64,000 nucleotides of DNA, taken from positions 1 to 64,000 of the forward strand of contig NZ_LJAL01000002.1 of assembly GCF_001419985.1 (NCBI RefSeq), read 5' to 3'. The translations under genes and the position numbers were made by a program. Within the stretch, counting starts at the first letter, position 1. Each line of letters starts with the position of its first letter. Below, in pieces: positions 19,849-21,547 of the stretch. The stretch comes from Loktanella sp. 5RATIMAR09. GTDB lineage: Bacteria; Pseudomonadota; Alphaproteobacteria; Rhodobacterales; Rhodobacteraceae. The notes under the pieces were generated by a model, which saw only the letters and a program-made list of their open reading frames with translations, did no database searches and was not told where the DNA came from.

Positions 19849-20196
19849 ATGACAGATAAGACAACCTCAGTTTCACGCCGTCAGCTATTGACCCGCATCG
19901 GTGGCCTGGCCGCCGCAGCTTATACGGTCCCGGCCTTTACAACGATGTCGATGGCACATGCCTCGGATGGGGCTTCTGCGCCATCCGCCAACAGCCCTGC
20001 CAGCGCACCGAGCGAGCAAAGCGCACCGAGCGAGCCAAGCGCACCAAGCACACCAAGTGACCCAAGTGGGCCAAGCAACCCGAGCACAGCAAGCACTCCG
20101 AGTGCGCAGAGCGGTCCGTCGAGCGCAAACGACTCCGGTTCATGCGGCGAGTCGGGCGGTACCTGGAATTGGTCCAATGGGACTTGTATGTCCTGA
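19849..20196 (+). CDS. Tat-exported Ser/Pro/Ala-rich small protein, candidate modified peptide
   Basis: A 115-residue product. Residues 9-14 are S-R-R-Q-L-L, a twin-arginine motif, followed by a mild hydrophobic stretch and AHA near residue 37. The middle (about 38-95) is low complexity, made of Ser-Ala-Pro and Pro-Ser units with varied spacer residues. The C-terminus has two Cys 14 residues apart (C99, C113), with W106 and W108 between them, and ends in Ser115. The composition suggests a flexible exported stalk with a small disulfide loop. The next large gene encodes a kinase-like/PqqD fusion, which makes a modified-peptide role worth testing. No family recognised. Confidence 0.65.
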   Translation: MTDKTTSVSRRQLLTRIGGLAAAAYTVPAFTTMSMAHASDGASAPSANSPASAPSEQSAPSEPSAPSTPSDPSGPSNPSTASTPSAQSGPSSANDSGSCGESGGTWNWSNGTCMS

Positions 20197-20229
20197 TCGC
20201 GGCTTGCGTTGTTTCAGGTCGGTGATCTG

Positions 20230-20301
20230 ATGCTTTTGAACCGTTCGCTTGATGAACACTGTGACGTGGCCCCTTTGCGGGGGCTGCGTTCTTATGGATA
20301 A
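20230..20301 (+). CDS. Possible 23-residue leader peptide
   Basis: A short frame from ATG 20230 to TAA 20299-20301, preceded by a GGTGATCTG stretch. Its last codons overlap the ATG at 20294 of the kinase/PqqD gene, which has no good ribosome site of its own, so it could act through translational coupling. It could equally be chance, and the longer kinase start at 20252 would make it irrelevant. Confidence 0.25.
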   Translation: MLLNRSLDEHCDVAPLRGLRSYG

Positions 20302-21547
20302 AACTGCGGACATTTGTTTGAACTTCGCAGGTTTGGACGCGCCCCTCAGGGTGGTGCAGCCCGATGTTGTCCGCCCCTTGCTTGATCCTGTCATGGGGGG
20401 GTGGCCCTTTTCGGCGGTGCCTTGTGATGATCCACAGGCCAAACCTGCCTTCGCCACCATTGGTCCGCTTGATGCCAAGAAATGGCGTCTGGAAGCCCCG
20501 CGCGCGGCCAAGCCGGTGGCCGACCATAACCCTGTGAATGCGATCTGTGATCTTGTGGTTGAAATGTCGTGGGAACGCCTGCGCAGCAGCCCTGACCTTT
20601 TGTGTCTGCATGCCGCAGCGTTGACGTTCAATGACCGTCTTGTGATTTTTCCCAATGCCCGCCGTGCAGGCAAAAGCCTTTTGTCTGCGACGCTGGCGCA
20701 TGCGGGGCATGAGGTGTTTTCGGATGATTTTGTGCCGCTGGCTGTCGATCCGCAAAGCGGTGTGATCAGCGGCATGGCCAACGGCATCGCGCCACGTCTG
20801 CGCATGCCTTTGCCGGATAATATTTCGGCGTCTCTCAATCGCTGGATCATGGACCGGATCGGCGTGCGCAATAAGCAATATGGTTATTTGACCGGCATTG
20901 ATTTGCCCCGATCGGGAACCACCGCGCCAGTGGGCGCGATTGTGGTGTTGGAGGGTGATCCAACCATGACAGAGCCTGCGTCGCTGAGCCCTGTTTCGCG
21001 TGAGGACGCGATGGCCGCTTTGGTGACGCAGAATTTTGGGCGGCAGGTGCATGCCGGGGCCATCTTGCGTGTCACTGACGCCTTGACCCGCACAGTGCCT
21101 GTCCTGCGGTTGCGCTATAACAGTGTCGAGGACGCAGCGGCGCTCTTGCATGAAACCCCGCTCTTGCATTATCTGCCTGCGGCGCAGATGGCAGAGGCGG
21201 ATCAGCCCGGAACCTTGCCACTTGCGCCCTTGGCCCTTCCGGATGTGCGGCGTGACGGGCCGGTCGATCTGGCGCGGAAATTTAACAAACTGCCCGACTA
21301 TACCGAGTGCGAGAGCGAGACCTCTCTCTATCTTGCCGATGGCGATGGGTTTGCGATCCAGCGCTTGAACCCTGTCTCTGCGATCATTTGGACACTGCTG
21401 GATGAGGGGCTGACCGGGGTCGAGATGGTTGAAGTCATGCAAGAATTATACTCGGATATCGCGGTGGATCGCCTGCGCGCGGATGTTGCGGGCGCACTGG
21501 AATTTCTATGGCAGGAACGGTTGATCGTGCCGACCTCTGAACGCTGA
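20294..21547 (+). CDS. HPr-kinase-like protein fused to PqqD-like (RRE) domain
   Basis: About 417 residues. The first 310 residues resemble the HprK-related kinases: HAAAL near 106, a P-loop-like PNARRAGKSL at 120-129, and FSDDFVPL at 142-149. The P-loop keeps GKS but has lost the usual leading Gly. The last 75 residues resemble PqqD, the leader-peptide recognition fold: a hydrophobic strand with FAIQRLNPVSAIIWTLLDEG, then ELYSD and a helix ending FLWQERLIV. Cytoplasmic, no signal peptide. HprK homologues phosphorylate Ser on HPr or on some lasso precursors. The Tat protein just upstream is the obvious candidate substrate, by inference. The start may instead be ATG 20252. Confidence 0.7.
   Translation: MDKTADICLNFAGLDAPLRVVQPDVVRPLLDPVMGGWPFSAVPCDDPQAKPAFATIGPLDAKKWRLEAPRAAKPVADHNPVNAICDLVVEMSWERLRSSPDLLCLHAAALTFNDRLVIFPNARRAGKSLLSATLAHAGHEVFSDDFVPLAVDPQSGVISGMANGIAPRLRMPLPDNISASLNRWIMDRIGVRNKQYGYLTGIDLPRSGTTAPVGAIVVLEGDPTMTEPASLSPVSREDAMAALVTQNFGRQVHAGAILRVTDALTRTVPVLRLRYNSVEDAAALLHETPLLHYLPAAQMAEADQPGTLPLAPLALPDVRRDGPVDLARKFNKLPDYTECESETSLYLADGDGFAIQRLNPVSAIIWTLLDEGLTGVEMVEVMQELYSDIAVDRLRADVAGALEFLWQERLIVPTSER

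Follow-up and report, generated by a model that had tools for sequence, protein, structure and literature searches.

A candidate Tat-coupled phosphorylation module: serine-array proteins paired with an HprK-like kinase fused to a PqqD domain in Rhodobacteraceae

What does a kinase fused to a peptide-recognition domain do beside the gene of a small exported protein? The question is raised by a locus of Loktanella sp. 5RATIMAR09 (Alphaproteobacteria, Rhodobacteraceae), in which the gene of a serine-rich protein with a twin-arginine translocation (Tat) signal precedes a gene joining an HprK-like kinase to a PqqD domain, i.e., a recognition element for ribosomally synthesized and post-translationally modified peptides (RiPP recognition element, RRE). 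The pair lies in the window, as we call the whole analyzed stretch of 64,000 nucleotides (contig NZ_LJAL01000002.1, positions 1 to 64,000). The best joint explanation, which we consider fairly probable, is a module for the cytoplasmic modification of the partner protein followed by its Tat export. The parts of this proposal deserve different degrees of confidence. The RRE is predicted with high confidence to read the Tat signal, the kinase would probably act on Ser residues of the partner, and a target consisting of a Ser array rather than one fixed Ser is slightly favored.

The smaller open reading frame (ORF), positions 19849–20196, was found as given in a preliminary description of this DNA. 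Its 115-residue product carries the features of a Tat signal (a twin arginine within SRRQLL, a hydrophobic stretch and an AxA site, AHA/S), a Ser-Pro-Ala region, two Cys flanking 13 residues (two of them Trp), and Ser as its last residue. The ORF of the fusion kinase opens 52 bases further on with a TTG at 20249, from which the residue numbers of the kinase are counted here. The ATG at 20294 is the likelier start, judging by the sequence of the close relative L002, which begins there; counted from this ATG, the GKS at 126–128 and the SDD at 144–146 noted previously are correct.

The pairing recurs. The Tat gene was found directly upstream at 33 of the 34 aligned fusion loci, hence the arrangement is not due to chance. 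The set of 34 leaves out L079, L082 and L083 (no PqqD), L081, L084–L086 (other families) and the weak matches L012, L013 and L015; at L081, where the kinase is split into two ORFs, a Tat gene is present upstream too. When the neighborhoods of 38 loci were compared over their 25 largest gene clusters, the Tat protein alone proved a near-constant neighbor of the kinase. On the genome scale, 31 of the 394 family genomes gave a match to the kinase query (E up to 1e-8), and a profile of 31 Tat leaders, run against the same genomes, gave a two-peaked distribution with real matches of at least 37 bits in 30 genomes (E up to 1.1e-8) and a background not exceeding 30.5 bits. All 30 leader genomes contained the kinase, 29 of them being in the kinase list and one, G255, holding a fragment with the kinase start at a contig end. 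The two kinase-list genomes without the leader, G106 and G425, encode HprK-like proteins devoid of PqqD. The co-occurrence of leader and kinase was highly significant (Fisher p 5.6e-43, or 1.9e-40 if G255 is not taken as kinase-positive), with the reservation that the leader profile was built from the partners of these very kinases, so that the informative cell is the absence of the leader from every kinase-less genome. In the window genome, the profile matched the Tat protein at 71.1 bits as the sole strong match, the next best reaching 18.5 bits. The co-occurrence across relatives, whose absence the preliminary description had named among the possible refutations, was thus found both for loci and for genomes.

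The PqqD domain of the window protein was recognized by Pfam with E 4.3e-7 (30.6 bits vs the gathering score of 23.4), and a PqqD match was present in all 34 aligned homologues (E up to 0.1). The family profile (34 relatives, alignment A1) matched the leader-binding RREs TbiB1 (1.2e-8), LppB (9.6e-7), TfuB1 and PbaB1; PDB entries 9x8z and 9x90 correspond to LppB and PbaB1, respectively, as named in the available part of Popov et al. 2026 (PMC13381572). The window PqqD part alone gave a weak match to LppB in the PDB (E 0.91). According to the same source, the Tyr of the YxxP leader is held by D70 of LppB, and the kink at its Pro by N33. The counterpart of D70, Asp412, is Asp in 33/34 homologues and that of N33, Asn374, is Asn in 31/34. 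Such fusion proteins are annotated by NCBI as "PqqD family protein". The window genome encodes a second, unlinked PqqD domain (contig C1:82182-82349; 28.4 bits, over the cut-off).

The recognition elements of lasso peptides and of LPP, the LppA/LppK/LppB system, bind the motif [Y/W]xxPx[L/V/I/F/A], as stated in the accessible text of PMC13381572. To this motif corresponds YTVPAF in the Tat signal of the window protein. The partners of the 34 family loci were re-picked without the use of the motif, which yielded 32 proteins, and YxxPx[hydrophobic] was located inside the Tat h-region of all 32. The filter missed the partner of L052; found by a search requiring a Y..P-like pattern, it carries YLAPSV. 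The motif was also present in 16/16 class loci, a biased count as these were selected via the leader profile. In 48 partners, the Tyr stood at -14 from the cleavage site in 38, at -15 in nine and at -12 in one. As a control, the 20 best background matches of the leader profile from outside the system were used, and none of their Tat signals contained YxxPx[hydrophobic]. They replaced a first control of Tat-like signals encoded away from the kinase in the fetched loci, which with nine proteins was too small; three of the nine had the motif, two of them (L002 and L073) being members of the system and the third (L083) having the match behind the signal. The twin arginine was invariant in the leader alignment A3, for which it was a selection criterion. 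Since the Tat signal holds the YxxP motif and the PqqD domain keeps its pocket residues, a single stretch appears to serve both as leader peptide and as export signal.

The kinase part of the window protein matched the NCBIfam model HprK_rel_A (TIGR04352) with E 7.5e-12 and 44.9 bits, below the curated cut-off of 200, and the kinase core matched this model in all 34 aligned homologues. When the window kinase alone was searched against the PDB by sequence, no HprK or PqqD match was returned and the family profile was needed, which matched the solved HprK structures 3tqf (E 1.8e-5) and 1jb1. The HprK and PqqD fold matches rest accordingly on sequence profiles, and at this level the previously proposed union of an HprK-like region with a PqqD-like end was confirmed. 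Residues His121, Gly141-Lys142-Ser143 and Asp159-Asp160 are invariant in 34/34 homologues. The spacing of His, Lys, Ser, Asp and Asp is identical to that of the catalytic residues H148/K169/S170/D186/D187 of the peptide kinase BsfK, as reported in the available part of PMC10368454.

The mature partners are highly divergent, with acidic S-E-P, neutral S-A-A or S-G-G and basic S-R-P compositions. Ser is nevertheless the least variable residue in 33 partners, with a mean fraction of 0.27 and a coefficient of variation of 0.25 vs 0.61–1.34 for the others (the count includes L056, partly masked). In the mature region of the window protein, the Ser/Thr lag-3 autocorrelation was 0.69 vs 0.36 in shuffles (p 0.001), and this period was significant (p<0.05) in 27/33 partners. 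Both Ser codon families, AGY and TCN, were used at least twice each in 27/33 partners, which argues that Ser is kept at the protein level and not merely via recent DNA repeats. Two Cys near the C terminus were found in 19/33 partners, all encoded beside kinases of clade I (21 members); no partner of clade II contained Cys. The details stressed in the preliminary description, although present in the window, turned out not to be general: five of the 33 partners end in Ser, and two Trp within the Cys loop occur in 2/19 two-Cys partners, with one Trp in four more.

At the class level, 43 loci matched the profile at E up to 1e-15; 40 were fetched and the other three were already in the collection. 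Among the 40, a leader above 14 bits was present in 16, comprising three fusions, nine kinases with a separate neighboring PqqD gene and four with a PqqD match elsewhere in the genome. In L174, L176, L177 and L178, the Tat gene adjoins the kinase and the PqqD match is tens of kb distant or on a different contig of the same genome. In a tree of 54 kinases, including four of the 24 class loci without a leader, 47 formed one group (support 100/99), 46 of which have a Tat partner, and three Tat-linked split kinases were placed outside it.

Five HprK-like kinases (L079, L082, L083, L232 and L233) lack an adjacent PqqD. Four of them (L082, L083, L232 and L233) adjoin exported Ser-rich proteins with an MLRR-type start and no YxxP motif and constitute a separate family, in which a PqqD-less HprK-like kinase is coupled with an exported Ser-rich protein. 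The Ser-rich proteins of L082, L083 and L232 (three of the four) share a related tail, DGL..VSP.N......F. The search for PqqD in the genomes of the five kinases found none in G019, G104 and G425. As four of the five PqqD-less kinases adjoin Ser-rich proteins without YxxP, PqqD tends to accompany YxxP, and the kinase tends to accompany Ser arrays, which, in the few cases at hand, fits the proposed division of labor.

From the observed gene linkage, motif, pocket and catalytic residues and family Ser arrays we infer the following order of events. The PqqD domain would bind the Tat signal of the partner in the cytoplasm via YxxPx[hydrophobic], as lasso and LPP RREs bind their leaders, since this signal carries the motif of those RREs; the prediction is based on the motif, its spacing and the conserved pocket residues. 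Bound in this way, the partner would expose its mature part, which appears to be disordered, to the HprK-like domain of the fusion, and this domain would phosphorylate serines of the Ser-x-x array before export. Given that partners of an HprK-like enzyme share Ser arrays, phosphorylation of Ser prior to export is the natural reading. Tat would then carry the modified protein across the membrane, and an ordinary signal peptidase would cut at AHA/S, as no dedicated peptidase or exporter was found beside the pair. In clade I, to which the window protein belongs, the two tail Cys presumably pair in the periplasm. The product would be an exported phosphoserine-rich protein, and our guess for its role outside the cell is cation binding or attachment to the envelope or matrix.

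The binding and the pre-export phosphorylation had been proposed from the window alone, with the last Ser as the presumed target. The link between the two genes and the binding gained comparative support; the choice of the last Ser did not. The idea that the fusion acts in the manner of the ThcoK-type lasso kinases on a C-terminal Ser draws on the end of the window protein and on the earlier known lasso kinases, which modify this position (available text of PMC10368454). With 5/33 partners ending in Ser, and even the 78%-identical relative ending in CTPD, it is very improbable, and terminal Ser was dropped as a general target. A search of the partners for one invariant Ser close to the cleavage site, as LPP has, was negative. 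Another possibility is that the PqqD domain serves above all as an export chaperone, keeping hold of the Tat signal as long as the protein is not ready, with the HprK-like domain as an ATP-driven release switch and phosphorylation of the partner minor or absent. The position of the binding motif within the signal peptide itself, the habit of Tat proofreading chaperones of binding signal peptides, an atypical P-loop (Asn136) and the very few Ser of some class-level partners would suit such a role; it is rendered unlikely by the invariance of GKS, DD and His and by the Ser arrays kept beside kinases without adjacent PqqD.

The phosphate could also be a priming step, the Ser being destined for a nucleotidyl, glycerol or sugar group or for elimination to dehydroalanine by an enzyme encoded elsewhere. 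The LPP clusters, similarly to the paeninodin-like ones, carry a nucleoside triphosphate (NTP) transferase besides the kinase, as far as the accessible part of PMC13381572 goes. Visual inspection of the 25 largest gene clusters displayed for 38 loci revealed no such enzyme, and the scanned neighbors in the window are ordinary or unmatched, hence we regard priming as improbable, less so than the terminal-Ser target. The least probable alternative sees in the partner a structural or adhesive secreted protein and in the pairing mere co-regulation, the kinase having its target elsewhere. It could appeal to the two-component or sigma-factor regulators found beside subsets of loci; the status of the Tat protein as sole near-constant neighbor, the genome-wide co-occurrence of leader and kinase and a signal motif suited to the PqqD domain all argue against it.

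Several observations weigh against cytoplasmic phosphorylation followed by Tat export. Three of the 20 control Tat signals contained YxxP followed by x-Arg, and the invariance of the motif could partly reflect ancestry, because the leaders are homologous. The first P-loop Gly of BsfK (G163, described as important for this kinase in the available part of PMC10368454) corresponds, judging by the spacing, to Asn136 of the window protein and is Gly in only 13/34 homologues, which makes the P-loop atypical; a structure model of the kinase from two sequences had a mean pLDDT (predicted local distance difference test) of 37.7 and was not used. As to the substrate, the lag-3 periodicity did not reach p<0.05 in 6/33 partners, and no fixed Ser position was found among the partners, unlike Ser3 of LPP and Bsf. 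The peptides of L172, L173, L176, L183 and G051, all outside the family, have 1–3 Ser in the mature part, so the Ser array may be a feature of only part of the system. For the fusion kinase L051 (G029), a partner was found neither next to it nor in the rest of the genome (leader match E up to 0.01), and the PqqD-less kinase L079 (G425) has none either. Unlinked PqqD is present in G100 and G106, two of the genomes in which kinase and PqqD are dissociated. At the class level, 24/40 loci have no Tat leader above 14 bits; in two of these (L180 and L190), little sequence precedes the kinase on the contig.

How does the system relate to known ones? The likeness to LPP, as described in the available part of PMC13381572, comprises the HprK-like kinase, the RRE, the YxxP leader, the lack of a cyclase and variable C termini. 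There, the leader Tyr occupies -16 vs mostly -14 in the Tat partners, and the kinase adds several phosphates to Ser3. In the system studied here, unlike in LPP, the leader is the Tat signal, the core is a Ser array, and one protein unites kinase and RRE (separate in other families). The SipW-like peptidase, NTP transferase and MsbA-like exporter of LPP type were not detected among ten window neighbors by Pfam (two remained unmatched), nor were they recognized on visual inspection of the neighborhoods of 38 loci (25 largest gene clusters). Nine of these loci have an ABC-importer-like ATPase, at distances that vary. With the phosphorylated lasso peptides (ThcoK/paeninodin and BsfK/BsfB1; accessible text of PMC10368454) the system shares an RRE-aided HprK-like peptide kinase, the motif [Y/W]xxPx[L] and the His-Lys-Ser-Asp-Asp spacing; it differs in that the product is presumed to be linear and Tat-exported. 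As already stated in the preliminary description, no lasso macrolactam cyclase (asparagine-synthetase-like) or B2 protease lies beside the pair: neither was present among the ten window neighbors nor recognized by eye among the conserved neighbors.

The HPr-rel-A system (TIGR04352, TIGR04353) has the same kinase core, and in other families a separate PqqD gene adjoins the kinase as well; it differs in the score of the window kinase, far below the model cut-off, and the Tat partner is not named in those models as listed. Chaperones of the TorD/DmsD type are cytoplasmic, bind a specific Tat signal before export and have a fold that is not known to be related to PqqD/RRE. The resemblance thus concerns the cytoplasmic binding of a specific Tat signal, the binder here being the PqqD/RRE domain fused to a kinase. 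The system works like LPP and the Bsf-type phosphorylated peptides. We file it under neither heading, since neither the accessory proteins of LPP (peptidase, NTP transferase, exporter) nor the lasso enzymes (cyclase, protease) were detected among the neighbors of the pair, and since the occurrence of LPP is described as limited to Bacillota (available part of PMC13381572). The earlier statement that the pair fits no known class has to be qualified, as the mode of action of these peptides is closely similar; the Tat route and the kinase–RRE fusion are absent from the accessible LPP and Bsf descriptions (PMC13381572, PMC10368454). No Tat-linked RRE-kinase was found in the open-licence PMC literature, among the matches listed, as judged from titles and abstract openings.

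Other proteins may use the same kinase. In nine clade I loci (L050, L054, L055, L057–L060, L064 and L066), the genes of a second Tat protein and of a two-component pair (response regulator and histidine kinase) come after that of the kinase. Both second Tat proteins that were scanned matched PepSY, one over the cut-off; all nine carry YxxPx[hydrophobic] and a Ser/Pro linker, and eight end in Cys. The one of L060 is apparently cut short. In clade II, six loci have genes of a Tat-subtilase and of a sigma-factor-like protein next to the kinase; in four of them these lie upstream, in two on the opposite side. Two Tat-subtilases were confirmed by Pfam, and two more are so annotated, with a sigma factor, on Paracoccus and Shinella plasmids. 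The motif was present in all eight subtilase signals read (L067, L070, L071, L075, L076, L125, L207 and L208; that of L074 was not among them). The same eight subtilases have a Ser/Gly/Arg-rich linker, and most adjoin sigma-factor genes. Where a Tat-PepSY protein or a Tat-subtilase is encoded, the kinase probably treats it too. Copies of the leader unlinked to the kinase were noted in three genomes (L124, L125 and L126); that of L126 (2995-3444) belongs to a Tat protein which has a long SSSGG array and could be a substrate in trans. A Sulfitobacter indolifex plasmid (L209, 1600-5663) holds a cluster of lasso type, with PqqD, B2 and asparagine synthase, together with an HprK-like protein annotated as hypothetical. 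An unannotated small ORF before its PqqD gene contains YEVPTL within the leader and ends in Ser, and judging by these features is likely to be a phosphorylated lasso precursor. In the broadest formulation, to which we give about an even chance, a widespread alphaproteobacterial RRE-kinase would read YxxPx[hydrophobic] in several Tat signals (Ser-array peptide, PepSY, subtilase), phosphorylate Ser-rich linkers in the cytoplasm and couple this modification to Tat export, giving rise to a class of exported multi-phosphoserine proteins.

The features of the locus are collected in Table 1. The ten neighboring genes in the window, scanned with Pfam, comprise a glycerate-kinase-like gene, a di-haem peroxidase, a Sel1 gene, three TRAP transporter parts, a flavin reductase, an aldo-keto reductase and two unmatched genes, and TatC is encoded in the window genome. 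Stem-loops, some with a T run, were seen by eye in the gap between the Tat and kinase genes of the window (20214-20293) and of L048, L049, L050, L054, L058 and L064; it is possible that they are partial terminators yielding substrate in excess of enzyme.

Table 1. Positions of the features of the Tat protein–kinase locus in the window.
Feature	Positions	Strand	Basis or remark
Tat-exported Ser-array protein, candidate substrate	19849..20196	+	ATG start, 115 aa, ORF
Twin arginine RR, residues 10-11, Tat signal of the 115-aa protein	19876..19881	+	sequence
YTVPAF, residues 25-30, YxxPx[hydrophobic] putative RRE-binding motif within the Tat h-region	19921..19938	+	motif comparison
Mature region, Ser-x-x array (S-x-P repeats), proposed phosphorylation region	19963..20142	+	lag-3 autocorrelation, Ser constancy
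Two-Cys C-terminal loop, Cys99-Cys113, presumed periplasmic disulfide	20143..20187	+	sequence
HprK-like kinase fused to PqqD/RRE domain	20249..21547	+	432 aa from TTG; 417 aa from ATG 20294
Possible stem-loop and T-rich tail, just 5' of the kinase ATG	20266..20293	+	read by eye
HprK-like catalytic segment: His121, GKS 141-143, Asp159-Asp160	20609..20728	+	invariant 34/34, spacing as in BsfK
PqqD / RiPP recognition element domain, residues 371-426, with Asn374 and Asp412	21359..21526	+	Pfam PF05402

If the proposal is true, leader-guided peptide modification and Tat export, which were not found joined in the literature searched, would be united in one system. This would explain the use of Tat by small, apparently disordered proteins, as Tat exports proteins that are finished in the cytoplasm. 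RREs would then suggest themselves as tags for the modification of exported proteins, and families of secreted phosphoproteins, subtilases included, would be predicted in common marine and soil bacteria.
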